This document shows positions 1,132-63,173 of a stretch of 64,000 nt of DNA, in pieces; position 1 is the first letter of the stretch, and each line of letters starts with the position of its first letter. The translations under genes were made by a program, and so were the position numbers. This stretch comes from an uncultured Bacteroidales bacterium (lineage in GTDB: Bacteria > Bacteroidota > Bacteroidia > Bacteroidales > FEN-979). The stretch is from the NCBI GenBank assembly GCA_903887775.1, contig CAISRB010000024.1, forward strand, positions 186,001 to 250,000, in the 5' to 3' direction. The notes beneath the pieces were generated by a model. It was given only the letters and a program-made list of their open reading frames with translations. It searched no databases and had not been told where the DNA came from.

Positions 1132-4100
1132 ATGGATAACGATAATATGATCAGGATTGTCAGCGCTTCCGAGAATAACCTGAACTCGGTCACACTGGAC
1201 ATTCCCAAAAACAAGCTTGTTGTCGTAACCGGAGTCTCAGGCTCCGGCAAATCATCTCTTATATTCGATGTGCTGTATAAGGAAGCAGAATTCAGATATT
1301 TTGGTTCATTCTCGTCATATGCCCGGCAGTTCCTCGGAAAGATGAAACGGCCGGAGGTTGAACGCATCGACGGGCTCTCTCCGGCAGTTGCGGTGGACCA
1401 GGGATCGGTTGTTAACAATCCAAGGTCGACAGTAGGCACACTTAGCGGTATCTACGATCATCTGAGACTGCTGTTTGCCCGTACTGGCCGGGCGATGCCC
1501 TCCGGGGATTTATCCGGCCAGGCGGTTAACGGTCAGCAGCAAGGCGACAGTTTCCGGATCAACCGCAGCCTGTTTTCATTTAATTCTGCTGACGGGGCCT
1601 GCCCGATTTGCAAAGGCCTGGGGGTCGAAGACCGCCTTGATCCTTCCCTGCTGATTGAAGATGATGCAAAGTCTATCCGCCAGAGAGCCATGACGATCAC
1701 GACACCGAACGGGTATATTATGTATTCCCAGGTAACCCTGGATGTGCTTGACCAGGTTTGCCGTGCCGAAGGTTTTACCATCGATATCCCTTGGAAAGAC
1801 CTGACCGCCGAAAACAAACATGTGATTTTCTACGGCAGTGATAAGCTGGAGATCCCCTTTGGCAAACATCCTCTGGAATCGAGGATGAAATGGAGCGGAA
1901 TTACGGCAAAACCCCGCGAAATGGGGGTTTACAAAGGGGTGATTCCGGTCATGGAAGAAATTCTTAAAAGGGACAGAAACAAAAATATCCTTCGTTTTGT
2001 GCGTACAACCTCCTGTTCAGCCTGCGGGGGGAAGAGGCTTAATAACCGGGCTCTTTCGGTAAAAGTTGGAGGATTGGATATCGCTTCATTATCCGCACTT
2101 CCGGTTAGCGTGCTTGGCAATTCCCTTGCTGCCCTTGACTTTCCATCAGGTCAGAGCAAGGTAGCCGGCGGGATACTCAAGAACATCCTGTCATTGATCA
2201 GCGAAATGAAGCGGCTGGGACTCGGTCATCTTTCAACCGACAGGGAATCGGGGAGCTTGTCAGCCGGTGAATCGCGCCGCCTGAAGCTTGCAACACAGCT
2301 GGGTTCCGGACTTAGCGGGATGATCTGTGTGTTCGATGAGCCATCCATCGGGCTGCATGAATCCGAAACCCTGGAATTGATTTTAGTCCTGAAACAGTTG
2401 CGTGACCAGGGAAACACGGTGATCGTTGTGGAACATGATGAAGAATTCATACGGCATGCCGATCATATTATCGATATAGGTCCGGGTCCGGGGGTTTACG
2501 GGGGTAATGTATTATTGAACTATGCGGTGGCCGAACTTAAGAGTATACCCGAGGGAATTATCAGCAAAAGCAAAACCTTATCATATTTCTTCGGAATTGA
2601 ACGCGTGGATTCACCTGCTTTTACCCGTGAGGACAAGGGCGAATTCAGGATTTCAGGGGCTTCTCATCACAACTTGAAAAATATTAACGTTTCTTTTCGT
2701 CTTGAATCTCTTAATGTGGTGACCGGTGTTTCCGGCGCCGGCAAAGGGAGCCTGGTACACCAGACCCTGGGGAGTTTCCTGAGGAAGAAATTAAACAAAA
2801 GCAATGAAGAATCCGGGAAATACGATTCAATTACGGGTTTGGAAAGCATCAAACGGCTTATTGAGATCGACCAGTCGCCGATAGGCCGCACTCCGAGAAG
2901 CAATCCCGCCACTTATACAGGCCTGTTCGATGATATCCGGGACCTGTTCGCTTTGCTGCCGGGATCTGTTGCCAGAGGATACGGAAAGAGCCGTTTTTCT
3001 TTCAACACGAAAGGCGGCCGTTGCGAGGACTGCGAAGGGGCGGGCTATAAACAAACCGGAATGCATTTTATGGGAAGCGTGGAGATCTTGTGTGAAAGCT
3101 GCAACGGCCGCCGGTTCGATAACGAGACGCTCGAAATAACATCGAAGGGAAAAAATATTTCCGGGATTCTCGAAATGCCGGTATCTGAAGCTTTGATTTA
3201 CTTTGAAGGGGAGAGAAAAATCCTGCATTGCCTTAAGACTCTCGATGAGCTCGGGCTGGGTTACCTGACCCTGGGCCAGCGGTCCTCAACCCTGAGCGGA
3301 GGAGAAGCCCAGCGCGTAAAACTGGCTGCTGAACTTGCCAGACCCGCATCATCACATACATTATATATTCTTGATGAACCGACAACAGGGCTGCATAGCG
3401 ACGATGTAAAAAAACTTCTTTTATGCCTGAACGGCCTTATCGACCATGGACATACTGTTATTTGTATAGAACATCATCCGGCATTATTGAGATCTGCAGA
3501 CCGGATCATTAAACTTGGTCCGGGAAGCGGGAATGATGGGGGAGGATTGATTTTTGCCGGAAATCCTGAGGATTATTTTCGTGACGATTCATCAGCTGTG
3601 GCTCATGGCTCGCCACTTACGGTTCGTGATAAATCTGAAATTCAAAATTCTTTGGTCAACAATCAATACCCGTCGACATATGATCATCTCTCGAACTCAC
3701 CATTTTCCCGGAACGATGAACTGGTTTTGATAAACGTCACAACCCACAATCTTAAAAACATCAACGTCTGTATCCCACATGGCCAACTAACAGTGATCAC
3801 CGGTGTTTCCGGCAGCGGAAAGTCTTCCCTTGCTTTTGATACCATTCATGCCGAAGCCCGGAACCGCTTCCTGTGCAATTTCTCGGCTTATGCACGCACC
3901 CGGATCGGCATGAAGGACAAGCCCGACTTTGAAAAGGTTAGCGGGCTGCGGCCAACTTTCGCGGTTGAACAATCGGGGATCCAGTCTAACCCCAGATCCA
4001 CAGTGGGTACATTTACCGGGATTTATGACCTGTACCGCCTGCTTTTTTCGAGGGCGGCACTGAAACTGACAAACGCCCGGGTTCAGGTCTCTCTGCAATC

Positions 4101-6222
4101 CGCCCTGAATCAAACTGATTCCATACAAGGGAGGCGGGAATATCATTCCAGGCCCCTTTCAACTTTCTTTTCCTTCAACAGCATACAGGGAGCCTGCCCC
4201 GAATGCGACGGCCTTGGGATAATCATTTTATGCGATCCCGGGAAGCTGATTACCGATCCCGGTCTCTCCATAATTAACGGAGCCATGGATGGAAGTAAAA
4301 CCGGTAAATTTTACGGGGATCCTTACGGACAATATACTGCAACCCTTAAAACGGTTGGAGCCAAACATGGCATTGACTTCGGCAGGCCATGGAATGAACT
4401 TTCAGCTGAGGATAAGCAGCTTGCTTTATATGGATGCGGGGACGAGACTTATGATGTCAGCTGGGAATTCCTCAGGAACAAACGCAGCGGCACTCATCAT
4501 TTCAAAGGTACATGGCCAGGCTTTCTCGGTCTTGTAAATGAGGAATACACCCGCAAACATGCCGACCACCGTGGTGAGAGCATGATGAATGTGATGAGCG
4601 GTATGGAATGTATGGCATGCCATGGCAGCCGTTTACATGCAGGCGTTCTGTCGTGGGTCATCCGCCAAAAGAATATTGCTGAGATCTCAGCCATGGATAT
4701 TTCGGAAAGCATCAGTTTCTTTAGTGGTTTTTTCAGGCCCTGTCCGGGAACTGACCTTAACGAAGGGGCTGCGGATCCCCTGCATCCTGCAACCTTATCG
4801 GAAGAGCAGGAGAGGACCATTACCGGGCCCCTGGTGACTGAGATATTGCGCAGGCTGACAACACTGGATACCCTCGGACTTTCATATCTTGCTGTTTCAA
4901 GAAATACGGTATCACTTTCACATGGGGAAGCAAGGCGACTGCAGCTGGCAGCTCAAACGGGATCAGGTTTGTCGGGGATGATCTATGTCCTGGATGAACC
5001 CACCGCCGGGCTGCATTCAAAGGACACTACTAGGCTTGTATATCATTTAAGAGAGCTTATCAAGGCTGGTAATACAGTGATAGCAGTGGAACATGAGAGG
5101 GAAGTGATACTCGGGGCAGATCATATCATTGATATGGGGCCTGGAGCAGGCAGGCTGGGCGGTGAGATTGTTGCCGAAGGAAGTGTTAAAGAAATTATTG
5201 ATTCCGAAAGATCCGTCACGGGAAAATACCTGAGATCCCCGCTCAACCCGCATCCTCATGCGATCAGGAAGATGTCATCAGGCCTTCAGATAAAGAATGC
5301 CTTCATCCATAACCTGAAACATTTCGACCTGGAAATTCCTTCGCGCGGGATCATTTGCGTTACCGGGGTTTCGGGCAGCGGGAAATCGAGCCTGGTGTTT
5401 GATCTGATTCATGCCTCCTGGAAGGAGGGCAGACCAACAGGATGCAGCGGTATCAGCGGATTTGAGAAATTCGGCAGGGTGGTGAGTGTTGAACAAAGAG
5501 AGGAGTTCAACTCCCCTCACTCTGTAATTGCAACCTATTCAGGAGCTTTTGACCTGATCCGAAATCTCATTGCCTCAACCGATGATGCCAGGCAGGGAGG
5601 TTTCGCGAAAAACCATTTCTCCTTCCTGAACAAACAATCACAATGCCCCAATTGCGAAGGCATGGGACAGACCAGGATCAGCATGGACTTTATGCCAGAT
5701 ATATACCAGGAATGCGAGGTTTGCCATGGGAAAAGGTTCAGGCCTGAAATCCTCGTTGTTGGTTATTGTGGAAAAAATATAAGTGAGATACTTGATTTAA
5801 GCGTTTCGGAGGCTGCAGTTTTCTTTGCCGGTCAGAAACAGCTTCTGCCGATCCTGAAGAATCTTGATGAGGCGGGATTGGGCTATCTCAAACTTGGCCA
5901 GCCCCTGAATACCCTGTCGGGAGGAGAAGCGCAAAGGCTGAATCTTTGCAGGGAACTGATGACACCTCTGAAATCCTGCATCCCGCATCCTGCATCCAGC
6001 ATCTTGCATCCTGCATCCCTTTACCTTTTCGACGAACCCTCCACCGGCCTTCACTTCGCCGATATCGAAAACCTTCTGAAACTGTTCCACCATCTCGCCG
6101 ATGAGGGTAATACCCTGATAATCATCGAACATGACCGGCAGATCATCTCTGAAGCAGATCATATTATAGAACTTGGGCCTGAAGGTGGTGAAAGGGGAGG
6201 GTACTTTTTAAGTGAAAAGTGA
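1132..6222 (+). CDS. giant four-cassette UvrA2-like ABC ATPase (two UvrA halves fused twice over)
   Basis: A 1696-residue UvrA-family protein with four ABC cassettes. Walker A motifs (GVSGSGKSS or variants) begin near residues 34, 531, 889 and 1410. Each cassette has its signature (LSAGE, LSGGE, LSHGE, LSGGE) and a DEPxxGLH Walker B block. Zinc-type CxxC pairs ([32 protein letters not shown] and equivalents) recur. Ordinary UvrA has two cassettes in about 940 residues; here two such units of about 840 are joined. In cassettes 1 and 3 the chain passes quickly from LFAR/LFSR to the SFNS...CP zinc region, so the UvrB-binding domain appears absent, as in the UvrA2/DrrC-like class. Likely role: DNA-damage or intercalator tolerance. 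The linker between halves, a loop in cassette 4 and the stop codon all lie in 7-bp repeats. A second in-frame ATG at 1147 is possible. Confidence 0.9.
3598..3702 (+). repeat. degenerate heptamer tract encoding the linker between the two UvrA halves
   Basis: Within the UvrA-like gene, between cassettes 2 and 3. The 14-mer GTGGCTCATGGCTC at 3598-3611 is the reverse complement of units in the array at 63104-63173 (TGAGCCA units). The following bases can be read as drifted 7-bp units such as CGGTTCG, TGATAAA, TCTGAAA and TTCAAAA. The encoded residues are polar and linker-like, with no UvrA motif. The first part is clear; the rest is interpretation. Confidence 0.55.
5975..6019 (+). repeat. in-frame 7-bp tandem repeat inside cassette 4 of the UvrA-like gene
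   Basis: Six consecutive heptamers, CCTGCAT, CCCGCAT, CCTGCAT, CCAGCAT, CTTGCAT and CCTGCAT, plus a partial unit. Three units make 21 bp, so the protein repeats every 7 residues: CIPHPAS then SILHPAS. It lies between the signature motif and Walker B strand of the fourth cassette, lengthening a loop without breaking the frame. Confidence 0.9.
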
Positions 6223-6258
6223 ATAGTGACTGGTGACCGGTGAACCGGGATAAATGAA
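6210..6258 (+). repeat. heptamer array containing the stop codon of the UvrA-like gene
   Basis: Units AAGTGAA, AAGTGAA, TAGTGAC, TGGTGAC, CGGTGAA, CCGGGAT and AAATGAA. The last residues (SEK) and the TGA stop at 6220-6222 are read from the first units. The unit type matches the array after the M28 peptidase gene at 10401-10435 when both are read in gene direction. Confidence 0.85.
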
Positions 6259-10400: not shown

Positions 10401-10435
10401 ACCATTCATCATTCACTAGTCACCATTCACCAGCC
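10401..10435 (-). repeat. heptamer array after the M28 peptidase stop
   Basis: Five 7-bp units, on the plus strand ACCATTC, ATCATTC, ACTAGTC, ACCATTC and ACCAGCC, ending 2 bp from the minus-strand TGA at 10438-10440. Read in gene direction the units are GGTGAAT/AGTGAAT-like, the same type as the array after the UvrA-like gene. Confidence 0.8.
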
Positions 10436-10437: not shown

Positions 10438-13389
10438 TCATTTCTCCGCCGCCACCTGGGCCACGGTTTCGATTGCGATAGCCGAAAAAGCTGCCCCGTA
10501 ATCAAGGTCTATATTTTCCATGGTGTCATGCGTATCATGATATCCCTGCCGGTGGATGTCGTAATTTTCCATAAACAAAACAGAGGGAACGCCGATATCT
10601 GAGAATATCATCACATCGGTGTTATACAGTGAACTGGTAGGATCTTCCCATGTGCGGACTTCCCCTTCCAGGGACAGGAACAATGCTTTTTCGGGAATCC
10701 TGAATCCTGACTCCTTTGCCCCGCATCCCGTATCCTTGATTTTTAGTTGCCCTTCGAACTTAATCCGTTCACCTCTCTTACATCTGGCCCTGCCAGGTCC
10801 CGAATTCAGCTCTTCAGCAAGTTTATTCCATGCACGGTTGACAAGGTGGGCCTTATAGCCCAGTTTCACCGAATCAAGGGTTCGCCCCGGAGAGATCTGG
10901 AAGATATCCCTTGCATTGTCGCGGTTATGGGCTATCATATCCATCACAAAAACCCCTTTGATTTCCACTCCGCTGAGGTCTTTGAAGCTGCCGTCATCCC
11001 TTCGCATTTTCAATGTCTTTTGCACGTAATTCCGGCAGAAATCCCTGGCCCCCATACAGTCTGAAGGAAATTCCTCGCCTGTTAAATGGATAAGCCAGAT
11101 ATCTCTTTCCAGTTTGCCTTCTTTCGCAAGTTGCAGGAAAACAGGAGCTGCCAGCAACAGGGTGGATGTAGCCGAATGGTTATCATCTGCTCCTGCTGCT
11201 GCAAGCCTTGCGCCCGTTCCACCTGCTGATTTATCATATACATCCTCCATGTAGGCTGTGTCGTAATGATCGCCCATGATGATCGCCTCTTTACGGTTCT
11301 TCCCGGGTATTATTACGAGTATGTTCCTTTCATATTCAGTCCCTTCAAGGTTAGCCTTCCAGCCCCCGAACTGGGTAAAGTCAAAATCAGTCTCCCATTT
11401 GAATGGTAATTCCCCCGTTTCGGCCCTGCCTTTCATACCCTTCTCAGCAATTGCTTTTCTGTGGCTGGCCAGAAGGTAATCTCCAAGAAGATGGAGGTCC
11501 CTTTTGTTATGCCTGGTTTCATTCAGGGTGGGGTGGTCCTGAACCACATCCGCATTATCCTTGTTGATATACTCACCGCAGGCCAGGCTGAAGATCTGGT
11601 TCCAGAAATCCTCCTCGTATTTTCTAGTGGCTGTAGACGTAAATGTCAGGGGTTCAGGTAAGGCATTGTCTTCTTTGATGATATTTTCAACGAAAATTTT
11701 TGCCCTGTGAGCCAGGCCGGGCTGGTTGGTACGTTCATGAAGGATTTGAAGCCATTCATCGAGGCTTGCATCTTTTTTGATCCTGATGAGGTGGCGGGCA
11801 AAATCCTTTTCCAGAGCAGGCACTTCAAGCAGTTCCCACACATCGAGCAGGGTCATCAGGTTGAAAGCAGTGAGATGTTTACTATGATCATGCTGTGAAA
11901 CAAAATGCTTCAGTATAGAGGTATGAGGCTGCCTTTCCATCATCCTCGGCCACAATTCTATCGGCTTCGCCGGATCAGGCTTTGCCGAATCATAGGCGGT
12001 AAGGTATCCGTACAGCAGGTCCTCGAATACCATAGGTTTTGCAGTGGCCGTATCTACGCAAGCCACAACAGGCCTGTGCCAGAATATCTCATGCCTTCCC
12101 GCCTGCATGGGCGGGAAATAAAAGCGGTAGCGGAAGAGCCCTCCTGCAAGTACTACCGAAGCAGCATGCTGAATTTCTTTTTTACCGGCCCGGGGACCGT
12201 CGAGCAGAAGCCCGATATGCTCATTAAGGATCTGAACATTTCTTGCCATGGGTTTGTTATACAGATCGAGTGCCGGGAGCGTGGTGTTGAATAAGGTTTG
12301 TGCGACGGGGTCGATCTGTTTGCCGCCAATCAGTGGATCTTCGGTACGGCCTGCCCTGTCCCAGCGGCTTGTACGGACATATGTATTAAGCAGCAGTTCT
12401 TCAAGGATGTCCGGGTTTTCTTTTCCCGGCGAGGGTTGATGAAACCATCCCGACTGAGGCACCCTGATCCCGAAATTCTCTTCATTCCTGCTAACCAGGC
12501 GGAGCATCGGGAACTGGATGGCATTGTACAGCTGGCCTGCCAGGTTTATATAATCCTTGTTTCCCCATAACGCCAGGCTCCCGGGGAAAGGGATCAGCGC
12601 CAGGTCGCCTGCAAAATATTTCTGTTTGACGACTTCCGGCAGGCTCCCAAAGGGCCTGAAGGTTAGCAGGTATACCGTATCGGCAAAACTGTCGCCATCA
12701 GCAATCAGATATTTGGAAGTCCATGAAGGAAGTTTAGCCCCGTTCCAGTGTGCCATGGGAAGTTTTCCAGCCGACGGCATAATACGAAAACCAGCCTCCA
12801 GCATCGTCTCAGGCGTGTTTAACCTGCGATCAAAAGCATGATGGAAGATCTTCCCGATGAACTGAAGAAAAAAGGACTCCGGGTATTCATCTTTATCTCC
12901 CCTGAAAAACGACTTCCAGAAAGCTTTTTCAGGCCCCTGTTCGCTTCCCCCGAAGAGTGTCCACCTGGACCTTCCTTTATCGTCTTTTGTTTTTGATAAA
13001 GCCATCGAAGCCAGCAATACATAGCGTTCATAATTCAGGCTGCCTGCTTTTTGGGCCAGTTCATCCGGCCAGAAAGGATTATCCCTCAGGTTCCGGTTTT
13101 TTCTTCCCGCTATGCTTGGAGGAAGTTTCCCTTTTCCAAGCTGGATTATATGCTCCATGCATTGCTGCCCTATGCTTTGAAGGCCTGGTTGAAGATGCAG
13201 AAATTCTTCAGCTTCATTGATGTAAAACCCGTACAGATCATCCTCTTTGAAATGCCATGGATAAACCTGGCCATCGTATGGCCTGAACCCGATATGCATA
13301 GGTGGCATGAACTCAGAATAAGCCGGCAGGGGAAATCCGTCTTCTCCGCCAAACCAGGGAAAATTCTCAAGAAACTGTTTCCAACCCAT
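10438..13389 (-). CDS. large M28-family metallopeptidase-like protein
   Basis: A 983-residue protein. The C-terminal third is an M28 zinc-aminopeptidase domain: MGDHYDTAY with His near 708, then AGADDNHSATS with bridging Asp, HLTGEEF with catalytic Glu, and a late His in HDTHDTMENID. The first 650 or so residues belong to no domain I recognise; they include tracts such as WPRMMERQPHTSILKHFVSQ. There is no signal peptide, so a cytoplasmic location is implied unless exported otherwise. The gene starts within TGATG, overlapping the stop of the upstream 82-residue gene by one base, which implies translational coupling. Substrate unknown. Confidence 0.8.
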   Translation of the reverse strand: MGWKQFLENFPWFGGEDGFPLPAYSEFMPPMHIGFRPYDGQVYPWHFKEDDLYGFYINEAEEFLHLQPGLQSIGQQCMEHIIQLGKGKLPPSIAGRKNRNLRDNPFWPDELAQKAGSLNYERYVLLASMALSKTKDDKGRSRWTLFGGSEQGPEKAFWKSFFRGDKDEYPESFFLQFIGKIFHHAFDRRLNTPETMLEAGFRIMPSAGKLPMAHWNGAKLPSWTSKYLIADGDSFADTVYLLTFRPFGSLPEVVKQKYFAGDLALIPFPGSLALWGNKDYINLAGQLYNAIQFPMLRLVSRNEENFGIRVPQSGWFHQPSPGKENPDILEELLLNTYVRTSRWDRAGRTEDPLIGGKQIDPVAQTLFNTTLPALDLYNKPMARNVQILNEHIGLLLDGPRAGKKEIQHAASVVLAGGLFRYRFYFPPMQAGRHEIFWHRPVVACVDTATAKPMVFEDLLYGYLTAYDSAKPDPAKPIELWPRMMERQPHTSILKHFVSQHDHSKHLTAFNLMTLLDVWELLEVPALEKDFARHLIRIKKDASLDEWLQILHERTNQPGLAHRAKIFVENIIKEDNALPEPLTFTSTATRKYEEDFWNQIFSLACGEYINKDNADVVQDHPTLNETRHNKRDLHLLGDYLLASHRKAIAEKGMKGRAETGELPFKWETDFDFTQFGGWKANLEGTEYERNILVIIPGKNRKEAIIMGDHYDTAYMEDVYDKSAGGTGARLAAAGADDNHSATSTLLLAAPVFLQLAKEGKLERDIWLIHLTGEEFPSDCMGARDFCRNYVQKTLKMRRDDGSFKDLSGVEIKGVFVMDMIAHNRDNARDIFQISPGRTLDSVKLGYKAHLVNRAWNKLAEELNSGPGRARCKRGERIKFEGQLKIKDTGCGAKESGFRIPEKALFLSLEGEVRTWEDPTSSLYNTDVMIFSDIGVPSVLFMENYDIHRQGYHDTHDTMENIDLDYGAAFSAIAIETVAQVAAEK

Positions 13390-26496: not shown

Positions 26497-26573
26497 AGAT
26501 GGCAGATGTCGGATGGCGGATGTATATAACCGTTCAACATTCAATATTCCTTGTTCAATATTCGATATTCGAA
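26497..26573. repeat. heptamer array between arsC-like gene and fumC
   Basis: Eleven 7-bp units in two blocks. The first is AGATGGC, AGATGTC, GGATGGC, GGATGTA. After TATAACC come GTTCAAC, ATTCAAT, ATTCCTT, GTTCAAT, ATTCGAT and ATTCGAA. The ATTCRAW-type units recur in the sufD-sufS gap. It fills most of the 114-bp gap. Confidence 0.85.
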
Positions 26574-29759: not shown

Positions 29760-30449
29760 ATGAAGACAATTGCAGTACTTACCGGGGCGGGCATCAGCGC
29801 AGAAAGCGGGATCTCCACTTTCCGCGACAGCAACGGACTTTGGGAACAATATCGCATCGAAGACGTTGCGACACCGGAAGCCTGGGCCAGGAATCCCCGG
29901 ATGGTGATGGATTTTTATAATATGCGTCGCAAGCAGCTTTTAGCTGTGGAACCCAATCCGGCTCATTTAGCCCTGGCCAGACTTGAACAGAAGTTCAATG
30001 TAAATATCATCACACAAAATGTAGATGACCTTCATGAACGTGCCGGTTCATCCGACGTTCTTCATCTGCACGGAGAACTGAAAAAAGCAAGGAGCAGCGT
30101 CGATGAGACATTGATTTACAAGATCAACGGATGGGAACTGAAGTTTGGCGACCTCTGTGAAAAAGGATCCCAGCTCAGGCCGCATATCGTATGGTTCGGG
30201 GAGCCGGTGCCCAATATTATGATCGCCTCAGGTATCATCCTGCGGGCCGATATGGTGATAGTCATCGGAACCTCCCTGAAAGTATACCCTGCTGCCGGCC
30301 TGCTTCAATACGCTCCTTCCGCCGCCCCGAAATACCTTATCGATCCCGAAGCCTCACCTGAATACCACGTCAGGAATCTTCATATCATCCGGGAAAAAGC
30401 CAGCATTGGTGTTCCTGAACTCGTAGAGATTTTAAGAAGCGAAAAGTGA
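29760..30449 (+). CDS. SIR2-family NAD-dependent protein deacylase, zinc-less type
   Basis: A 229-residue sirtuin. NAD motif GAGISAESGISTFR, catalytic His in LHLHGEL, TQNVDDLHERAG and GTSLKVYPAAGL are present. The YNMR motif (Tyr and Arg three apart) is that of desuccinylase/demalonylase-type (class III) sirtuins. The usual four zinc cysteines are absent: the protein has a single Cys, and KKARSS and GSQLRP stand at the expected sites, as in a known Bacteroidota branch. Its stop codon lies in a 7-bp repeat that also gives the final SEK. Confidence 0.88.
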   Translation: MKTIAVLTGAGISAESGISTFRDSNGLWEQYRIEDVATPEAWARNPRMVMDFYNMRRKQLLAVEPNPAHLALARLEQKFNVNIITQNVDDLHERAGSSDVLHLHGELKKARSSVDETLIYKINGWELKFGDLCEKGSQLRPHIVWFGEPVPNIMIASGIILRADMVIVIGTSLKVYPAAGLLQYAPSAAPKYLIDPEASPEYHVRNLHIIREKASIGVPELVEILRSEK

Positions 30450-30490
30450 AAAGCGAAAGGTGAAATCATTTCGATACCTCGCTACCTCGC
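30435..30490. repeat. heptamer array spanning two convergent stop codons
   Basis: Units AGAAGCG, AAAAGTG, AAAAGCG, AAAGGTG, AAATCAT, TTCGATA, CCTCGCT and ACCTCGC fill the space between the sirtuin stop (30447-30449, inside the array) and the GH38 stop (30490-30492). Read from the GH38 side, the sequence after its TAG is CGAGGTAGCGAGGTA, close to that after the sufB TAG. Confidence 0.8.
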
Positions 30491-33400
30491 TACTTTTGTC
30501 TTTCAAACACATCAATCTCCCTGAAATAATACGGCCCATGGCCCGAATCCTCGCTGACCCACATCAGGTAACGCCAGGACCCGCCTTTGTCGGGCAGAAT
30601 AGTGTATAGGGCTTTCGAATTGCCCCAGACATCCGTGGGAGGAACACTCATTATATAAGTCCAGCCTGAAGTCCTGGGATCACCGTTTGCATTGGGAGGA
30701 ACTGGTGAACTGGAACCCCAGAGGGAGATAAATTCCGATCCCCGGTGCATGTTAAGGTTGGCAAAGATGTGTATGCTGTCGATCTCTATCTCTTTCTGAA
30801 GATCCATCCATACCCGGCTTTCGCCTTCATCAAACCATACATCGTTCGCAGAATCGTTGGGCAGAAGATCGTACATCCCGTCGACCAGGGTCGAAAGATT
30901 CATCCCCTGTTCCGGTTTTTTCTTTACCGTGGTATCGGAAGTGGTATAAAAATATTTCACTGTCACCCCGTTAGGCTGGTGAAGGTCGGCATAATCCTTC
31001 ATCGTCACTTTGCCAGGCAGATCATTGAGGTTCCGGCTTCTGCTTATTTTGCAGGTGGCTAAGGCCCGGGCATTTTCATTCGTATAAGAAACAGGGAGGC
31101 TTAGGGCAACAGGACTCTTCCAGGAAAAATCATCATACATTGGCATGGCCGGAATGACCTGGTCGGAAAGGTCATCGGCAACTGTCATCGCGAAAATTTT
31201 AATGGCATTATTCTGGGGAAGCTGAACATAGCCGGAAGCAGAACTCACCGGCATGCTGTACTTGAACAGATAGGCATATTGATAGGGAATATTTAAAGTA
31301 TCCTTGTGAACATGGGTCGCAAACCATGCAACTTCATCGCGTTTGATATAACCCTTTTCAACAGCCTTTAACCGGCCAAGCTTATCCCATACCCTGTTGT
31401 CATACTGACCTATATTTCCTGTACAGGCCTGAATACGCAGAGTTGATTTAATATTGCCTGCTTTGAAAATACCATTGGTATCCTCATTGGCCGCAGCCAG
31501 TATAAATAACCTGTTGTAATTGCCGGTCTTAGGCAGCAGTATCTTTTGCCCGTCGCAGCTGATGACATTATTCTTGCCATCGGCTTTCTGACCGAGGGTA
31601 AATTCAATGCCATCCGCAGTAAGTGCAGAAGGAAAAAGTTCGGCAGGTATACTGAACCCTTTGTCATCGAACCGGCCATTTTTTTTATTATTATCACTGC
31701 TGACGACATCTTCCTCATATGCCAAAGGCAGGGGAATGCTGGTCGGATTGAGTAACCTGTCGGCTGGTTTATCCAGTTGGATCCTGAAACTCCGGATTGC
31801 ATACTTGTCCATGCTGATAATCAGTTTGCCGTTGACCGGCTGGATGTCGGCAATGCTGCGTTCCTGTCCGTCTACCTCGGAAACCTTGATGACTTTTGAA
31901 AGGAAACTGATTTCCACATTCTGGGCTTCTTTTCCAAGCAGTTCCTGCACCCTGACAATGATATCATTATTATTCTCCGCTTTTTTAATGGCCCGTAAGT
32001 CGACCTGTGGGCTCGAGACTTTAACAAACGATACTGATTTGCCAAGAGGGCCCTGGTGCTGAGGCACCACGAAAGCCCTTACAGGCTGGTTCAACATTTT
32101 TCCCTGCCATTCAGTCAGAGCGGTCCGCCAATCGCCCTTATGCGGATAAATTGCATAGACGAAATCATGGTTGCCGAAATCCTGGCTCGACTGCTCATGA
32201 TAGGTATTGGCATAAGGTGTATACAAAAGGGTAAGGCGGAGTGTTTTGTCGTCCGGCTTGTCGGAACCGAATTTGCAGTCTTCCAGGATGCTTACACCGA
32301 AGTTCCCCGATTTATCAGTCAGGTCAAACCATTCACGGGAAGGAACTTCGTATTTCTTTTCATTGTTGGTGGAGCGTTCAACAGTGCCCAGGCCGAGGTT
32401 GTATGTTGCATTTACATTTGAAGCTGTGAGCGGGAATGAAGCTTTAAGGCTCACCCCTTTCGATTGCCAGGCAACCTCGTTGCGTACAATGACCACTTCC
32501 TGGCCCGCCGTAAGCGAGATATACTGGGTGAAATCAGAATTCCGTCCCTTTCTTTCAACTTTAATTACATCACTCAGGTTACTGTTATAAACAAGGCTGA
32601 TGGTTGCAGGTCCTTTCACATAATCTATCGGAGGATTCTTACGGTCACGCCAGTCCATGTTCCAGGCCGGCCAGTATTCCGGATATTCATGCAGGAATTC
32701 GAGACGCGCAGGTGCCGATAGCATTTCCTTATTCTGGCGTTTATCGAAAATACTGCTGATATCTCCGTTCCCGTTGACTGTCACTTTAAGGAATTCGTTT
32801 TCAATCGAATTTTTCGAGGCTTTAAGAGTTGATTTCTCCTGGTATGGTTTGGCTGATGGCTGGACATCGAATAACGAAATCCCGACGGGAGGCAGGGAAG
32901 CAAGAAAAAGGATACGAATTGAATGTTTCGTACGATACTGGATCTGAACGGGAACTTCCTTGCCGTCAGGACCAATAACGCTGACAAATTCAGGGGGAGC
33001 TTCAGGGTAATTGAGTTCTACGTCGACAGTCGCTTTGCGTATTATCGCCAGTGGGTTATAAACTGCAACAGACTGACCGTTGCCACGGGTATCCATGCCA
33101 TGAATTATTGATGCAGCGGAGGACTGCAAAGCGCCGGAAAAGAGATTGAGCCCCAGAATTTCATCATTCCAGGCATATTCATATGCTTTTGGGATGCATG
33201 TTCCGGGCAGGATGTCGTGCATCTGGCTGCCAAGAACCAGCCACCAGGCAGAATTTAGCTGGGCCTGGGGATATCTGACTCCTCCTGCAAGGTCGGCGAA
33301 AACAGCAATAGGTTCAGTGGCCTGGGCCAGGAGTTCATTCTTCCTGTTCCAGCGTTTCATATAAGCCTGTGAAGTAAGGGAACCCGCAGAATGCTGAGTA

Positions 33401-52269: not shown

Positions 52270-52283
52270 GTAGCGAGATAGCG

Positions 52284-52388
52284 AAAAGCGAAAGGCGAAA
52301 GGCGAGAAGCGAGAAGCGAAAAGCGAAAAGCGAAAAGCGAAAAGCGAAAAGCGAAAAGCGAGAAGCGAAAAGCGAAAAGCGAAAAGCG
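52284..52388 (+). repeat. 15-unit heptamer array between sufB and sufC
   Basis: Fifteen consecutive units of exactly 7 bp: ten AAAAGCG, three AGAAGCG and two AAAGGCG. GTAGCG and AGATAGCG precede it, starting right at the sufB stop. It is the longest and most uniform array in the window. Confidence 0.95.
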
Positions 52389-52449
52389 AGTTTGGATATT
52401 TAGTTAAAATTCAGTAAAATGAATGAGTACATAAAATGTTTTTTTATTT

Positions 52450-52463
52450 CGCTTTTCGCTTTT
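52450..52463 (-). repeat. inverted two-unit copy of the sufB-sufC heptamer
   Basis: CGCTTTTCGCTTTT is the exact reverse complement of two AAAAGCG units, 61 bp downstream of the main array and 39 bp before sufC. It can pair with any of several register positions in the array. Confidence 0.85.
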
Positions 52464-54692: not shown

Positions 54693-54809
54693 GAGCCATG
54701 AGGCATAAGCCAAGAGCGATGAGCCATGAGGCAATAGGCATGAATGACGACGAGCAGCGTATAGTAATTCGACATTCGAAATTCGTTATTCAATATTCGA
54801 TATTCATTA
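54693..54809. repeat. heptamer array between sufD and sufS
   Basis: About sixteen units from the sufD stop almost to the sufS start: first ATGAGGC, ATAAGCC, AAGAGCG, ATGAGCC, ATGAGGC and AATAGGC, later ATTCGAA, ATTCGTT, ATTCAAT, ATTCGAT and ATTCATT. The two blocks match unit types at 63104 and 26532 respectively. The array fills the whole gap. Confidence 0.85.
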
Positions 54810-58050: not shown

Positions 58051-58078
58051 CCGTGATCCGTGATGTGTGATAGGTGAT
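58051..58078 (+). repeat. heptamer array after sufT
   Basis: Units CCGTGAT, CCGTGAT, GTGTGAT and AGGTGAT directly after the sufT stop. Confidence 0.75.
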
Positions 58079-58118
58079 GGGTCGCAGCAGTTTCGTAGCC
58101 GAAGGAAGTACCCATCAC
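58074..58118 (+). terminator. 9-bp perfect stem between sufT and dxs
   Basis: GTGATGGGT (58074-58082) pairs perfectly with ACCCATCAC (58110-58118) around a 27-nt loop that itself holds a small dyad (CGTAGCCGAAG). A T-run begins about 12 bp later. Terminator or 5' leader structure; the left arm is part of the heptamer array. Confidence 0.45.
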
Positions 58119-58146: not shown

Positions 58147-58166
58147 CACCCCGAATTGAATATGCC

Positions 58167-60065
58167 ATGACTCCCGCTGTCGGTCCCTTACTCGCGAACA
58201 TCAGCAACCCTGAAGACCTGAGAAAACTCAGGGTAGATCAGCTTCCCCAGCTATGCGCTGAGATCAGGCAATTCATCATAGATGTTATTTCAGCTAACCC
58301 CGGGCATCTCGGGGCCAGCCTTGGAGCTGTTGAACTCTCAGTAGCCGTTCATTATGTATTCGACACACCCAATGACAAGGTGATCTGGGATGTGGGGCAC
58401 CAGGCTTATGCACATAAGATCCTGACCGGGCGAAAGGAATCCTTTCATACGCTTCGCAGTTTCAATGGGATCAGCGGGTTCCCGAAGATGTCGGAGAGCA
58501 AATACGATGCTTTTGGAACGGGCCATTCCTCAACCAGTATTTCTGCTGCGCTTGGAATGGGTGTGGCTTCGAAGCTTAGTGGAGAGACCAGCCGCCACCA
58601 TGTTGCCATCATCGGTGACGGGGCAATGACGGGAGGTATGGCCATGGAGGCCCTTAACAATGCCGGCGTGTCCAATGCAAACCTGCTCGTGATCCTCAAC
58701 GACAACCAGATTGCCATTGATAAAAATGTGGGGGCCATTAAGGATTACCTCGCGGATATCGTGACGTCCAGGACCTATAATAAGTTCCGCGACAAGGTTT
58801 GGCTGCTGATGGGCGGTGGAACCCGTTACGGGAAGAATTCCAGGGCCATTGTAAAGCAGCTGGGCAATGCCCTGAAAGGTACCCTCCTGAAACCCAGTAA
58901 CCTGTTTGAAGCCTTTAACTTCAGGTATTTCGGCCTGGTTGATGGTAACGATATCGTTCGAATGGTTAATGTGCTCCGCGACATTAAAGATATCAAAGGC
59001 CCTAAAATCCTGCACATACATACCATAAAGGGAAAAGGGTTTGAAAAAGCCGAGCAGGACCAGACCGTTTTCCATGCCCCTGGCGTTTTTGACAAGGAAA
59101 CGGGTAAGATCAAAGATGATAAATGCCATGGCCAGGCTCCTAAATACCAGACAGTTTTCGGACATACCATTATCGAGCTGGCTGAGCAGAATCCTAAAAT
59201 TGTAGGGATCACCCCGGCCATGGCGACGGGTTGTTCCCTGAATATGATGATGAATAAAATGCCCGAAAGGACATTTGATGTGGGAATTGCAGAGCAGCAT
59301 GCCGTGACATTCAGCGCCGGACTTGCATCCTCGGGAATGATCCCCTTCTGCAATATCTATTCAACCTTCCTCCAGAGGGCATATGACCAGATCATCCATG
59401 ACGTGGCCTTGCAAAACCTCCAGGTGGTTTTATGCCTCGACCGTGGCGGGCTGGTTGGCGAAGATGGTGCCACTCACCATGGGGTATACGACCTGGCGTA
59501 CCTCCGCTGCATCCCCAACATGACAATTGCAGCCCCTATGAATGAAGAAGAGCTCAGGAACCTGATGTTTACAGCCCAGCTTCCGGGGAAAGGCCCGTTT
59601 GCCATCAGGTATCCAAAGGGCAGGGGAGTGATCGCTGAATGGAAAACGCCTTTGAAAGAAATGACCGTTGGTAAAGGCGTAAAAATAAAAAACGGCAAAG
59701 ATATTGCTATCCTGAGTACTGGGCATCCGGGCAATTTTGTAATGAAAGCGTGTGCGGAACTTGAAAAAGGAGGGATTCAGCCTGCCCACTTCCACCTGCC
59801 ATATGTTAAACCCCTCGACGAGGAATTACTGCATGAGATTTTCAGCAGCTTTAAACGCATAGTGACCGTTGAGGACGGAACTGTCTCAGGCGGATTCGGA
59901 AGCGCGATCCTTGAATTCATGAGCGACCATGGCTATGAGGCTAAAATAAAACGGCTCGGGGTTCCCGATAAGTTTATTGAGCAGGGAAAGAACGAAGAAC
60001 TTCACCACGAATGCGGGTTTGATGCGGAAGGGATTGTAAAAGCAGTGTTTAACCTTAGTTCGTAG
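58167..60065 (+). CDS. dxs: 1-deoxy-D-xylulose-5-phosphate synthase
   Basis: A 632-residue thiamine-diphosphate enzyme. N-terminal domain: PGHLGASLGAVELSVAVHYVF, VGHQAYAHKILTGR and the ThDP/Mg motif GDGAMTGGMAMEALNNAG. Pyrimidine-binding domain: DVGIAEQHAVTFSAGLA and DRGGLVGEDGATHHG. A C-terminal transketolase-like domain follows. It makes DXP from pyruvate and glyceraldehyde-3-phosphate, the first step of the MEP isoprenoid pathway. A tiny ATG CCA TGA at 58162 overlaps the start. The TAG stop is at the edge of a REP-like repeat. Confidence 0.97.
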   Translation: MTPAVGPLLANISNPEDLRKLRVDQLPQLCAEIRQFIIDVISANPGHLGASLGAVELSVAVHYVFDTPNDKVIWDVGHQAYAHKILTGRKESFHTLRSFNGISGFPKMSESKYDAFGTGHSSTSISAALGMGVASKLSGETSRHHVAIIGDGAMTGGMAMEALNNAGVSNANLLVILNDNQIAIDKNVGAIKDYLADIVTSRTYNKFRDKVWLLMGGGTRYGKNSRAIVKQLGNALKGTLLKPSNLFEAFNFRYFGLVDGNDIVRMVNVLRDIKDIKGPKILHIHTIKGKGFEKAEQDQTVFHAPGVFDKETGKIKDDKCHGQAPKYQTVFGHTIIELAEQNPKIVGITPAMATGCSLNMMMNKMPERTFDVGIAEQHAVTFSAGLASSGMIPFCNIYSTFLQRAYDQIIHDVALQNLQVVLCLDRGGLVGEDGATHHGVYDLAYLRCIPNMTIAAPMNEEELRNLMFTAQLPGKGPFAIRYPKGRGVIAEWKTPLKEMTVGKGVKIKNGKDIAILSTGHPGNFVMKACAELEKGGIQPAHFHLPYVKPLDEELLHEIFSSFKRIVTVEDGTVSGGFGSAILEFMSDHGYEAKIKRLGVPDKFIEQGKNEELHHECGFDAEGIVKAVFNLSS

Positions 60066-60135
60066 CGAAGAATTTTGTAAAAGCGTCAACAGGTGTACGC
60101 AGTGAACCTCAGCCGCGTCGAAAAGATCCAGGCGG
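60064..60135 (+). repeat. REP-like repeat after dxs
   Basis: Begins AGCGAAGAATTTT inside the dxs stop codon and continues AGCGTCAACAGGTG. The first 33 bases align, with roughly one mismatch in three, to the element at 56066 (AGCGAAGCATTTT ... GCAGCAGGTG). Both lie after stop codons. The homology is modest. Confidence 0.4.
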
Positions 60136-60139
60136 AATC

Positions 60140-60547
60140 TTACTTTTGATTCTCCAGCATCTTAAGCAAATCAGTAGCTTTTTTCCGGGTATGATGACTT
60201 AATATGAACAGTGCGCCTACGAGGATAAACGGGAAGGTAATCGTGAGAATGATGAAAAAACTCATCCAGATCGAATGGTTCATCGTGTAATTACCCCAAA
60301 AAACATATGGAGAGAATGCAAGGCCAAGAGACAGGAAAATAATACCCCCGATTTTTTCCCATTTCCAGGCGATGATAAGTATGACGATTAGAACGAAAGA
60401 GGGAATCATATGCATGATCCAGTCTAGAATCTGTGTTTTTAATGCCAAACCGGCCTGGAAAGCATCCAGTGAAAACATACTCACAAAAAGGATCCCAAGG
60501 ATCGCCAGGACCCTGGGAGCCCAGTAAAGAAGCAATACTGATCTCAT
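60140..60547 (-). CDS. small four-helix membrane protein, function unknown
   Basis: A 135-residue protein with hydrophobic helices at about 10-28, 40-60, 63-82 and 92-118, a basic C-terminal tail (HHTRKKATDLLKMLENQK) and no recognised motif. It resembles conserved hypothetical membrane proteins of Bacteroidota. It follows the NAD(P)-binding protein gene by 34 bp on the same strand and is probably co-transcribed. Confidence 0.6.
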   Translation of the reverse strand: MRSVLLLYWAPRVLAILGILFVSMFSLDAFQAGLALKTQILDWIMHMIPSFVLIVILIIAWKWEKIGGIIFLSLGLAFSPYVFWGNYTMNHSIWMSFFIILTITFPFILVGALFILSHHTRKKATDLLKMLENQK

Positions 60548-60581
60548 AATGATTTGGTTAAATTGAAATTAATGTAATAGT

Positions 60582-61199
60582 TTAAGTGCTTGATATTGCA
60601 GGCATTTTGAAATCGTATCTGGTATCGGTCATTAGTTTGAGCATGAAATCGGCAACATCGGCCCGGGGGATGGATTTTGAAGTTGGCTTGCCCTCATTGA
60701 TCCTGTACCTGCCGGTTTTCGGAGAGTCTGTAAGCCCGACCGGCCTGATGATCACCCAATCGGCACGGCTTTGTTTTATAACCTCTATCTGCCGTTTTTT
60801 ATCTTCGAAAATATGTTTCAAAAAAAGCGGCATGATGATCTTCCCGAACCAGAACCCCCCGTCACTGCCCTCTACGCCGGCCGAAGACATGCAGATGAAT
60901 CGTTTCACACTGCATTCCTCCATGGCCTGAAGTATAAGCCCTGTGGCACCCGATAACACGGTGGAAGGCTTGTTGCCGGTTATCCCCAGGGTGCATAATA
61001 CAGCTTCCTGGCCTTTTACAACCTCTTTGATCTTTTCATAATCTACGAGTTCCCCCTGGATGATACGGATATTTTTATGGGTGATTGAAATTTTATGTGG
61101 ACTGCGGGTGTAAGCCGTTACTTCATGACCCTGGTTCAGGGCCTGGAATACCAGCATAAGTCCTGTTTTCCCGCTTGCGCCAAAAACTGCTAGTTTCAT
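60582..61199 (-). CDS. NAD(P)-binding atypical SDR (NmrA-like)
   Basis: A 205-residue Rossmann protein. The GASGKTG nucleotide motif at residues 8-14, VLCTLGITG, a strand ending CMSSAGVEG and WVIIRPVGLTDSP mark the atypical/extended SDR group with NmrA or BLVRB-like members. The catalytic YxxxK of classical SDRs is lacking. It may reduce flavin or quinones or act as a redox sensor; substrate not predictable. Confidence 0.82.
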   Translation of the reverse strand: MKLAVFGASGKTGLMLVFQALNQGHEVTAYTRSPHKISITHKNIRIIQGELVDYEKIKEVVKGQEAVLCTLGITGNKPSTVLSGATGLILQAMEECSVKRFICMSSAGVEGSDGGFWFGKIIMPLFLKHIFEDKKRQIEVIKQSRADWVIIRPVGLTDSPKTGRYRINEGKPTSKSIPRADVADFMLKLMTDTRYDFKMPAISST

Positions 61200-61217
61200 C
61201 GTTCTTATCTTCTAATA

Positions 61218-61225
61218 CAAAGGTA
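61218..61225 (-). promoter_or_regulatory. -7 element of the NAD(P)-binding protein gene
   Basis: Minus-strand TACCTTTG, full match to TAnnTTTG, 18 bp before the ATG at 61199. Confidence 0.5.
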
Positions 61226-61309
61226 CGAAAAATTGACGGCAGGTTTAAAGAAACTCCAACCGCAGTATGAACACATTGAAAATCTTTCTATTTTTATCCA
61301 AAAAATAGT

Positions 61310-63127
61310 TTGTCTTTTTCCGACCTTTTCAGAAAGAAACCTATTGGGCTGATCCTCAACGATGCCGCCGGTTATGAGCGGGATTCGGGAGGTCTCAGGC
61401 GCAGCCTCACGGTATTTGACCTCACTGCCCTGGGCATTGCAGCTATAGTTGGTTCCGGTATTTTCGCAACCATTGGCGGCGCAGCGGCTTCGGGCGGACC
61501 AGCGGTTGCCTTGTTGTTTATTTTCACTGCCGTAGCCTGTAGTTTTTCTGCTTTATGCTATGCCGAATTTGCCTCGGTCATCCCCCTGAGCGGAAGCGCA
61601 TACACCTATGCCTACGCCAGCTTTGGCGAGCTCTTCGCCTGGATCATAGGCTGGGACCTTATTGTTGAATATGCGATAGGCAATATCGCTGTAGCTATTT
61701 CATGGTCTGATTATTTTTGCGGGCTGATGAGCGGAATGGGTCTTCATATCCCTGAATATATATCAACCGATTATGTTACAGCTCTCAGGGGTTATTATGA
61801 CGGTGCTGCAGCCATCGCTCATGGCAGCAGCCTGGACCAGCTTGCACCTGCAATACAGAAATCTTACCTGGCCTGGGTAAATGCGCCGGTACTCGGTGGA
61901 TTGCACCTGGTCGCCAACATCCCGGCATTTGCTATTGTAGCGCTAATTTCAGTCCTGGTCTATGTCGGAATATACGAAACAAAGGTTGCCGGAAATTCCA
62001 TGGTGATCCTCAAAGTCGTGGTTTTGCTCCTGGTCATTGGAGTCGGTTCATTCTATATCAAACCCGGTAACTGGTCGCCTTTTGCACCCCACGGCCTCAC
62101 CGGCGTGCTCAAAGGTGTATCAGGGGTTTTCTTTGCCTATATCGGTTTTGACGCCATTTCGACAACTGCCGAAGAATGTAAAAACACCAGGCGGGACCTG
62201 CCGAGGGCGATAATTTATTCGCTTATAATTACTACCATTTTATACGTATCGATCAGCCTGGTGCTTACCGGCATGGTGAACTATTCGGAACTGGGAGTTG
62301 GCGATCCCCTGGCCTATGTTTTCGAACGCATCCATATGGGTAAATTTGCCGGGTTTATCTCCCTCGCTGCAATCATTGCCATGGCCAGCGTGATCCTGGT
62401 CTTCCAGGTAGGCCAGCCGCGTATCTGGATGAGCATGAGCCGCGACGGACTGCTGCCGAAAGCTTTCTCAAGGATACATCCGAAATTTCGCACCCCCGCT
62501 TTTGCAACCGTAGTGGCAGGACTCCTTGCCTCCATCCCCTCCCTGTTCATGAATTTCACCGAGATCACTGATCTGACAAGCATCGGCACCCTGTTTGCTT
62601 TTGTTCTCGTGAGCGGGGGAGTATTGATACTTAACCCCAGGGGAAGGAGAGACAGGGAAGCCAGCTTCGCTCGTGAAATTCGCCACTCTCGTGATGAAAA
62701 GGACGCATCCCGAATCCCGCATCAGGGATCCGAAATAACCACAAAAGGCTTCCATGTCCCTTACATCAACTCCCGTTATGCTCTCCCGCTTGTCTGGGCC
62801 GGGGTTGCGGTGGTCCTGTACTTCTGGAACCCTCCTGAACTTAAGGAAATGCAAAGGCTTTTTAACTTTACCTTCGACCGGGATGACCTGCCCCTCTTCT
62901 TGTTCATTATCGCTGCAGTAATCCTTACACTTATGGGAATTGTACAAAAACTTTCCCTGATCCCCATTCTCGGGCTGCTTTCAAGCCTCTTCCTCATGGT
63001 CCACCTTGGCTTCACCAACTGGATGAGGTTTGTTGTCTGGCTGCTCCTTGGCATGATAATCTACATCCTGTATTCAAGGAAACACAGTCATCTCCGTCAC
63101 CCGGAGTCCGTGAGCCATGAGCCATGA
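61310..63127 (+). CDS. APC-superfamily amino-acid permease (cationic amino-acid type)
   Basis: A 605-residue transporter with about 13-14 helices. The first helix unwinds at IVGSGIFATIGG, the APC substrate-binding motif, and the family blocks CYAEFASVIPLSGSAYTYAY and FFAYIGFDAISTTAEE follow. No ATG exists; TTG 61310 starts. Between helices near residues 445-485 a charged stretch (REIRHSRDEKDASRIPHQ) is encoded partly by 7-bp repeats and looks like an insertion relative to usual CAT-type permeases. The last residues SVSHEP and the TGA stop lie in another heptamer array. Confidence 0.88.
   Translation: MSFSDLFRKKPIGLILNDAAGYERDSGGLRRSLTVFDLTALGIAAIVGSGIFATIGGAAASGGPAVALLFIFTAVACSFSALCYAEFASVIPLSGSAYTYAYASFGELFAWIIGWDLIVEYAIGNIAVAISWSDYFCGLMSGMGLHIPEYISTDYVTALRGYYDGAAAIAHGSSLDQLAPAIQKSYLAWVNAPVLGGLHLVANIPAFAIVALISVLVYVGIYETKVAGNSMVILKVVVLLLVIGVGSFYIKPGNWSPFAPHGLTGVLKGVSGVFFAYIGFDAISTTAEECKNTRRDLPRAIIYSLIITTILYVSISLVLTGMVNYSELGVGDPLAYVFERIHMGKFAGFISLAAIIAMASVILVFQVGQPRIWMSMSRDGLLPKAFSRIHPKFRTPAFATVVAGLLASIPSLFMNFTEITDLTSIGTLFAFVLVSGGVLILNPRGRRDREASFAREIRHSRDEKDASRIPHQGSEITTKGFHVPYINSRYALPLVWAGVAVVLYFWNPPELKEMQRLFNFTFDRDDLPLFLFIIAAVILTLMGIVQKLSLIPILGLLSSLFLMVHLGFTNWMRFVVWLLLGMIIYILYSRKHSHLRHPESVSHEP
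62705..62732 (+). repeat. heptamer tract within the permease gene
   Basis: Units GCATCCC, GAATCCC, GCATCAG and GGATCCG inside a cytoplasmic-loop coding region, matching the GCATCCN unit of the UvrA-like gene. The bases before it (62670-62704) may be older, drifted units. Confidence 0.65.
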
Positions 63128-63173
63128 GGCATGAGCCACGAACCATGAACTATGAACCAAAAATCGTAAATCA
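63104..63173 (+). repeat. ten-unit heptamer array containing the permease stop
   Basis: GAGTCCG, TGAGCCA, TGAGCCA, TGAGGCA, TGAGCCA, CGAACCA, TGAACTA, TGAACCA, AAAATCG and TAAATCA. The permease TGA (63125-63127) is the first three bases of the fourth unit. The array fills the gap to the TSUP gene. Confidence 0.9.

Follow-up and report, generated by a model that had tools for sequence, protein, structure and literature searches.

Heptamer arrays in the window and in the source genome

The window analyzed here is a 64,000-nt stretch (positions 186,001 to 250,000) of contig CAISRB010000024.1 in assembly GCA_903887775.1, from an uncultured Bacteroidales bacterium of the FEN-979 lineage. It carries short tandem arrays that share a period of 7 bp and differ in unit sequence, most of them in or overlapping the gaps between genes (Table 1); the longest lies between sufB and sufC. 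At the higher of two lag-match thresholds, nine tracts were detected at lag 7 and one at lag 8, with none at any of lags 4 to 6 or 9 to 12, and ten first-order Markov simulations of the window produced no lag-7 tract. The lower threshold yielded 12 heptamer tracts, against none in nine simulations and one in the tenth. At both counts (9 and 12), and judged by these 10 simulations, the tracts exceed the chance length for the composition of the window. A first-pass annotation made from the window alone had counted about fourteen, which was slightly high, and had begun the series at position 3598, where inspection showed no more than two matching copies, within a coding sequence. It had also placed nearly all of the tracts at a stop codon or in a short gap. 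The second half of that description stands, as 10 of the 12 lie in or overlap a gap, but a stop codon falls within 20 nt of an edge in only 8; two further tracts are in gaps 58 and 75 nt away from a stop codon, and two (5973 to 6018 and 10695 to 10715) lie within called genes. The sufC gene was set by hand for this count, and sufC together with the start of sufD for the orthologous-gap analysis below.

The source genome comprises 3.83 Mb in 33 contigs, from which 20 stretches of 20 kb were combined with the window into a 464-kb sample, about a tenth of the genome, with genes called by our own simple caller. Intergenic sequence of this sample held 34 segments at lag 7, 13 at lag 8, and 2 at lag 9, with none at lags 4 to 6 or 10 to 12, while called coding sequence held 7 at lag 7 and 1 to 4 at the other lags. 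An excess of lag 7 over other lags had been set beforehand as the test of the tandem tracts; it is present in the window and in the tenth of the genome that was sampled, and the tracts are real. The lag-7 and lag-8 counts would extrapolate to some 390 segments per genome. Arrays were present in 38 of 318 gaps and made up about 5% of the intergenic sequence. Three of the 32 contig ends fall within arrays. At one sampled locus (L012:10430-10803), a higher-order repeat extends over 374 bp, in which blocks of several heptamer variants recur as sets.

Placement was assessed across the source genus (the source genome and seven congeners), with gaps longer than 1,000 nt excluded from this and the per-kilobase counts. 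For the 68 arrays in codirectional gaps, the median distance was 6.5 nt to the preceding stop codon and 38.5 nt to the start codon that follows. If arrays were placed at random in these gaps, 29.8 would be expected to start within 20 nt of the stop and 28.5 to end within 20 nt of the following start; the observed numbers were 44 and 20. In convergent gaps, 14 of 15 arrays began no more than 14 nt past a stop, and 8 of the 14 overlapped the end of the gene. Divergent gaps carried 0.64 arrays per kb, versus 1.66 to 2.09 in the other gaps. The sense strand was richer in purines where an array was nearer a stop (mean content, 0.59; 46 arrays) than where the following start was closer (0.45; 22 arrays; P = 0.006).

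Density, measured as lag 7 plus lag 8 segments per 100 kb in one genome per species, ranged from 8.7 to 38.7 in the eight genus genomes, whose separate assemblies thus also carry arrays. Ten other genomes of the family gave 0 to 72, from small samples of 9 to 40 kb each, and another genus of the family gave 5.0 over 12 genomes (G009 being counted in both family samples). Twenty genomes from 20 other families of the order, represented by one stretch each, gave 1.0, and two order members picked for TGAGCCA matches gave 0 and 15. Seven stretches consisting wholly or largely of N (L150, L154, L155, L181, L194, L196, and L200) yielded no arrays; they remain within the kilobase totals of these densities and were excluded from the per-kilobase gap counts, the coding-sequence counts, and the unit-sharing counts. 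Lag counts were also made in 773 kb from 80 named suf loci, whose titles mostly point to Bacteroidota. They gave 26 segments at lag 7 and 2 to 7 at lags 4 to 6 and 8 to 10, while lag 11 had 11 and lag 12 had 15. An N run in L061 was removed before these counts and kept in a separate tract scan of the named loci. The heptamer excess is therefore widespread in a weak form, while its strong form occurs in the source genus and parts of its family. In 6 of the 80 loci, with differing titles (L035, L037, L049, L065, L088, and L093), heptamer tracts of differing units were seen just upstream of the sufC match, just before position 5001.

Among the neighboring genes, the UvrA-like open reading frame (ORF) at 1132 to 6222 encodes 1,696 amino acids, in which the UvrA DNA-binding domain is matched over two stretches, and has a heptamer tract toward its 3′ end; the usual length of UvrA is about half of this. 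A 2,398-amino-acid SprA-like gene, by its Pfam name a motility/secretion protein, lies at 37714 to 44910. An Rfam search of the window returned no match at the gathering level.

Table 1. Repeat tracts of the window and related features elsewhere in the sampled loci
Feature	Position	Strand	Context
ATCCTGC heptamer tract, 6.6 copies	5973..6018		Within 3′ part of UvrA-like ORF (1132-6222)
AAGTGAA / TGGTGAC heptamer tract	6210..6243	+	Crosses stop codon at 6222 into convergent gap
CATTCAC heptamer tract	10403..10432		Convergent gap
GAATCCT x3	10695..10715		Within coding sequence 10438-13389; one of the weakest tracts
AGATGGC-type heptamer tract	26497..26522		Gap
TTCAATA (ATTCAAT) heptamer tract	26533..26572		Stop codon 8 nt away
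AAGTGAA / AAGCGAA heptamer tract	30437..30465	+	Spans stop codon of Sir2-family gene
TCGCTACC octamer tract	30471..30493		Shares convergent gap with the 30437 tract and is partly complementary to it
Main array, AGCGAAA in about 16 copies	52280..52389	+	sufB-sufC gap
TTTCGCT inverted partner of the sufB-sufC array	52447..52463	-	Stem of 17 nt, full complementarity
GAGCCAT (TGAGCCA) tract	54693..54740	+	Begins beside sufD stop codon
ATTCGAT (ATTCAAT) tract	54767..54805	+	sufD-sufS gap
CCGTGAT tract	58051..58082	+	2 nt past stop codon; dxs-like gene downstream
CCATGAG (TGAGCCA) tract	63108..63157	+	Spans stop codon of amino-acid permease gene
51-nt element, example	L012:9099		
51-nt element, example	L013:13629	-	
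51-nt element, example	L020:6783		
Y1 transposase of the source genome	L226:2318-2746 (G000:C27)		

Unit dialects and turnover at orthologous gaps

Unit types recur at distant loci, as the first-pass annotation had reported, and each genome has its own dialect of units. When units in different stretches were compared (pairs within one stretch being excluded), 145 of 531 within-genome pairs agreed with at most one mismatch, compared with 218 of 3,961 between-genome pairs. The difference persisted when the source genome was removed (20 of 108 within versus 93 of 1,920 between; permutation P = 0.003) and when the comparison was confined to the genus minus the source genome (18 of 100 versus 59 of 795; P = 0.013).

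Pattern searches gave a similar picture; the counts are of overlapping matches, several to an array, and are not numbers of arrays. A three-unit AGCGAAA pattern matched 551 times in the source genome, 33, 20, and 1 times in three congeners, and not at all in four of the seven. The octamer TAGCGAAA gave 309 matches in G004, 43 in the source genome, and none in G003. TGAGCCA was found 124 times in the source genome, 63 in G003, 56 in G005, 7 in G007, once in G004, and in none of three congeners. Reversed-pattern controls gave no match in any of the eight genomes for the octamer and none in the genus for TGAGCCA, while that for AGCGAAA was uninformative because the reversed pattern is a rotation of an AGCGAAA array. 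The period proposed at the outset, strictly 7 bp with a variable unit, is accordingly near constant, with the unit variable as described, but an octamer class exists beside it, and in G004 the octamer form of the motif outnumbers the heptamer form (309 matches to the octamer form with 3 mismatches allowed in 24, versus 33 to the heptamer form with 2 allowed in 21). The initial proposal of a copying process "rather than" the spread of one mobile sequence is not supported by these counts: a unit can be numerous in one genome and missing from several congeners, as AGCGAAA and TGAGCCA are, which makes spread within a genome part of the story.

The domination of some genomes by one or a few units could also be expected if the arrays were clustered sites for a nucleic acid-binding protein whose specificity varied by species. 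One genome holds several unrelated units, however, which drift along the arrays, and the sites in the window follow suf, permease, and other housekeeping genes, so that such a role appears very improbable.

Orthologous gaps were compared in 19 sets from seven species, comprising 96 gaps, of which 38 bore an array. Both members carried arrays in 58 of 216 orthologous gap pairs, versus 33.8 expected. Among these 58, 11 shared a unit with at most one mismatch, 33 differed by more, and 14 differed in period; in non-orthologous cross-genome pairs of the same period, 24 of 309 shared a unit. The 11 of 58, set against 24 of 309, indicates some inheritance and mostly replacement. The sufB-sufC gap is an example, with units of the AGCGAAA, TAGCGAAA, TAACTGGA-like, TATCAGA, and GGGTGCT types in different genomes and, in G002, no array at threshold. 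Related species thus often keep an array in the same gap and reword its unit. That separate genomes bear arrays in the same gaps with different units, and that the Markov controls were nearly empty, makes assembly artefact or chance an extremely improbable source of the arrays, although low-copy matches such as those at 3598 and 10695 are near chance level.

Inverted arms and an embedded two-hairpin element

Codirectional gaps of 25 to 450 nt were searched for inverted arms, defined as ungapped complementary arms with a score of at least 11. These were found in 28 of 84 array-bearing gaps and in 30 of 357 others (Fisher P = 4e−8), and with the flanks of other arrays as control, inverted pairs were seen for 30 of 133 arrays, compared with 5.3 expected. 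The absence of SbcD was considered as a reason for tolerance of palindromes and was rejected: no match in the eight genus genomes exceeds the SbcD model cutoff, but elsewhere density is equal with and without the protein (in another genus of the family, 8 lag-7 segments in 178 kb from five genomes with SbcD and 10 in 223 kb from seven without).

Arms of this kind raise the possibility that the arrays serve as functional RNA hairpins at 3′ ends, acting as terminators or mRNA stabilizers, with the unit free to vary as long as the arms pair. The enrichment of arms in array gaps, the persistence of arrays at the same gaps across species, and their position at gene ends, purine rich near the stop and pyrimidine rich near the next start, are what this explanation would lead one to expect, as are perfect or near-perfect stems such as those at L021:12246, at L162:5888, and in the sufD-sufS gap of G006. 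Yet 56 of the 84 array gaps have no such stem, and some stems that were counted, L145:1420 for example, are not built of array units. Mispairs within the array-gap stems comprised 21 G-U and 36 A-C (two-sided P = 0.06), a difference in the direction opposite to that of selection on RNA; as G-U is not favored over A-C, nothing points to selection for RNA pairing, and RNA-level selection on the stems was rejected as a candidate. Mirroring of unit order between arms was weak (Fisher combined P = 0.045 for 16 hand-picked stems of the 28), and terminator-like sites in window positions 50001 to 64000 were not above shuffled sequence (18 versus 15.0; standard deviation, 5.0). We therefore regard a hairpin function as quite unlikely.

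A 51-nt element with the consensus TTCGGCGAAGCCGAAATGAGCACACAAATGAAATAAGCAATTGGTGCGAAT, which forms two hairpins, was found embedded in arrays of the GCGAAA or ATTTACG type. An exact pattern identified 81 copies distributed over all eight genus genomes, 31 of them in the source genome, and a single copy among 92 other relatives searched; this copy, in G039, shares its matched 37 bases with a copy in the source genome and possibly lies on a stray contig. Array periodicity flanks the element on both sides, with identity of about 0.45 at lag 7 or 8 versus 0.32 at lags 6 and 9 (33 copies), and the two flanks of one copy resemble each other more closely than a left flank resembles the right flanks of other copies (1.76 versus 2.25 mismatches on average). 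In 24 copies, 94.9% of cells in the first stem were paired, compared with 25 to 40% in slid controls, and there were 16 double-change cells, a number reached in none of 500 shuffles. Two pairs of this stem showed a double change, which is not above the shuffles, and helix 2 showed none. These 24 were drawn from 26 subtype A copies, leaving out L233 (which has no stem), L246 (one base shorter), and all seven subtype B copies (some with poor stems), a selection that favors the pairing result. By inspection, AGCG, AGTG, or TACG directly precedes the stem in 22 of 33 copies, and no GTAG or CGTC tag was found directly at the stem foot, GTAG occurring two bases further out in 4. Rfam searches of L012, L013, and L020 returned one tRNA and five subthreshold matches, none at the element.

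Each of the eight genus genomes also has one match to a Y1 (IS200/REP-like) transposase, 79 to 85% identical to the protein of the source genome, where the neighbors are a cytochrome oxidase and a protohaem farnesyltransferase (as read from ORF translations, without a family search). This copy pattern is unlike that of a multiplying insertion sequence. The protein falls below both NCBIfam cutoffs, scoring 25.8 bits against 80 for the repetitive extragenic palindromic (REP)-associated tyrosine transposase and 48.2 against 55 for IS200.

The transposase could move the 51-nt element together with flanking units, so that arrays would be its footprints, later expanded. The near restriction of the element to the genus, where each genome has one transposase match, the periodicity and likeness of its two flanks, and a first stem that keeps pairing despite changes on both sides are all consistent with this. 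Element copy number also tracks GCGAAA matches over the eight genomes, phylogeny being ignored (Spearman coefficient, 0.81 and P = 0.016 for 7-mers plus 8-mers; 0.77 and P = 0.026 for 7-mers alone; 0.59 and P = 0.13 for 8-mers alone). However, TGAGCCA matches do not track it (0.40; P = 0.33; n = 8), no shared core was found beside units other than GCGAAA in the sampled loci, and of the 16 AAAAGCG-like 7-bp segments in the source-genome sample, just 3 have an element within 200 nt (exact AATGAGCAC only). Moreover, three family members, G011, G021, and G024 (completeness of 95, 88, and 87%), carry arrays with neither a Y1 match nor an element, for which reason the transposase was rejected as the sole cause. 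Since arrays occur in these genomes and few segments lie near the element, the element is at most a partial seeder or a passenger, and seeding by the transposase as the general origin of the arrays seems rather unlikely.

Array growth and relation to known heptamer repeats

The arrays look locally grown. In 42 of 52 long arrays, units resembled their neighbors more than they resembled units three positions away; similarity fell from 0.84 between neighbors to 0.67 at a distance of five units, and in homogeneous arrays adjacent identity was above the mean of shuffled orders in 22 of 26 (individually at P ≤ 0.05 in 7). This agrees with the copying in 7-bp steps that had been suggested from the window, although the idea is not novel, slippage having been proposed for heptamers in 2007 (PMC4679880). 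On balance, we favor the view that these are heptamer and octamer arrays grown by slippage, spread within genomes, and tolerated at gene ends, and consider it probable, with real room for doubt. The data show the period, the placement, the restricted distribution, the dialects, the persistence of sites under a changing unit, and the inverted arms; we infer slippage as the engine, together with the route of unit spread and tolerance rather than function behind the gene-end placement. Arrays would lengthen and shorten by replication slippage, one unit of 7, less often 8, bp per step, the step size probably being fixed by contact between polymerase and DNA, as proposed for bacterial heptamers, and the process would be unusually active in the source genus and parts of its family. 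They may survive in short spacers after stop codons because coding sequence and promoters are little disturbed there. A successful unit would then colonize further spacers within its genome, which would produce the dialect of the species and the replacement of units at orthologous sites. For GCGAAA units, the nearly genus-specific two-hairpin element inside some arrays may ferry units to new sites, and the inverted arms, present in a third of array-bearing codirectional gaps, would most simply reflect template switching.

Several observations weigh against the slippage-and-spread reading. Slippage leaves unexplained both the sharing of units among distant arrays of one genome and the replacement of units at orthologous sites, and the former suggests that something beyond slippage is at work. 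The similarity of adjacent units is partly built in by array detection, and the cleaner shuffle test is significant in only 7 of the 26 arrays. Site persistence may be partly an effect of gap length. Counted per gap, divergent gaps in the genus set are not significantly poorer in arrays (10 of 87 versus 79 of 515; P = 0.42), and low-threshold arrays do occur inside coding sequence as drawn by our simple caller (32 in the genus and 10 in the family). Genus densities are biased upward, as several stretches were taken from the suf region or from contigs in repeat-match lists; spread across the family is incomplete, with 0 per 100 kb in G009 and 2.5 in G013; and G079, a member of the order from outside the family that was picked for a TGAGCCA match, still has 3 segments in 20 kb.

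Much of the anatomy is known from other bacteria, in the portions of the papers drawn on here. In most genomes, no other long simple repeat is reported to be as common as the heptamer, for which slippage set by polymerase contact has been offered as the explanation (Mrazek 2007, as cited in PMC4679880); PMC4692102 gives the same hypothesis from its 2007 reference 33, taken to be the same paper. Another study reports no average excess of short tandem repeats in bacteria but a high density in Bacteroidota (PMC12699852). The present arrays resemble heptameric long simple sequence repeats in the dominance of period 7 and in the slippage explanation and appear to differ in having many units per genome, turnover at orthologous gaps, and an octamer class alongside.

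In Xanthomonas, GGGAATC forms 183 to 186 arrays per genome, 89 to 93% of them intergenic, at an average of 28 nt from the 5′ neighboring ORF, with 7 to 8% between divergent ORFs and 70 to 75 convergent inverted pairs, and length and sequence vary between species (PMC4692102). Gene-end placement (here medians of 6.5 nt after a stop versus 38.5 nt before a start) and inverted pairs are common to both. However, the Xanthomonas arrays and those of GGGGA(C/T)T in Nostoc use a single G-rich unit type capable of forming quadruplexes (PMC4692102), in contrast to the many units found here. GGGAATC-like arrays had no match in the source genome, 13 in G005, 10 in G006, 1 in G001, and none in four congeners.

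TAACTGA arrays have been described in Beggiatoaceae, Cyanobacteria, and five Bacteroidetes, with other heptamers alongside in some of the latter (PMC4679880), contrary to the earlier impression that no equivalent with mixed units had been described in Bacteroidota. The two sets share intergenic heptamer arrays and this mixing of units. In the Guaymas Beggiatoaceae, TAACTGA arrays lie mostly just upstream of start codons (PMC4679880), whereas in the source genus arrays lie mostly just after stop codons. At the mismatch level applied to this unit and to GGGAATC, TAACTGA itself had no match in the source genome and one, with two mismatches, among the seven congeners (G002).

Cyanobacterial short tandemly repeated repetitive sequences and the heptanucleotide hairpins of the tRNA-Leu intron and rnpB are degenerate heptamers as well, some of which fold back on each other. 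The likeness is one of general description, and specific units and RNA genes are involved there. The 51-nt element, as distinct from the arrays, recalls REP sequences and their associated transposases in being a dispersed hairpin with a covarying first stem in genomes that carry a single-copy Y1 transposase. It differs in the absence of GTAG/CGTC directly at the stem foot and in the low scores of the transposase, and the portion of PMC3733652 drawn on here makes no link between REP sequences and tandem heptamers.

The heptamer excess, the slippage explanation, the gene-end and inverted-pair anatomy, and mixed heptamers in Bacteroidetes are thus already known. No description of unit dialects, of unit turnover at orthologous gaps, or of the embedded element was found in the open-license literature, in searches not aimed at each separately. 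The high density in the genus and parts of its family, the dialects of individual genomes, the persistence of sites with a change of unit, and the embedded 51-nt element, whose copy number tracks its unit, appear to be undescribed.

A combined route can also be envisaged, in which a Y1 transposase passed down vertically and the two-hairpin element, or an equivalent in other genera, deliver units that slippage then amplifies in 7- or 8-bp steps, newer units overwrite older ones at the same sites, and every species comes to write its spacers in a dialect of its own. We hold this to be rather unlikely; if it is true, spacers at gene ends would be renewed by copying within the genome. An excess of heptamers in bacterial genomes is noted without a tested mechanism in the portions of PMC4679880 and PMC4692102 cited above. 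A lineage with dense arrays, a variable unit, and alignable orthologous sites makes step size, growth, and unit replacement directly measurable.

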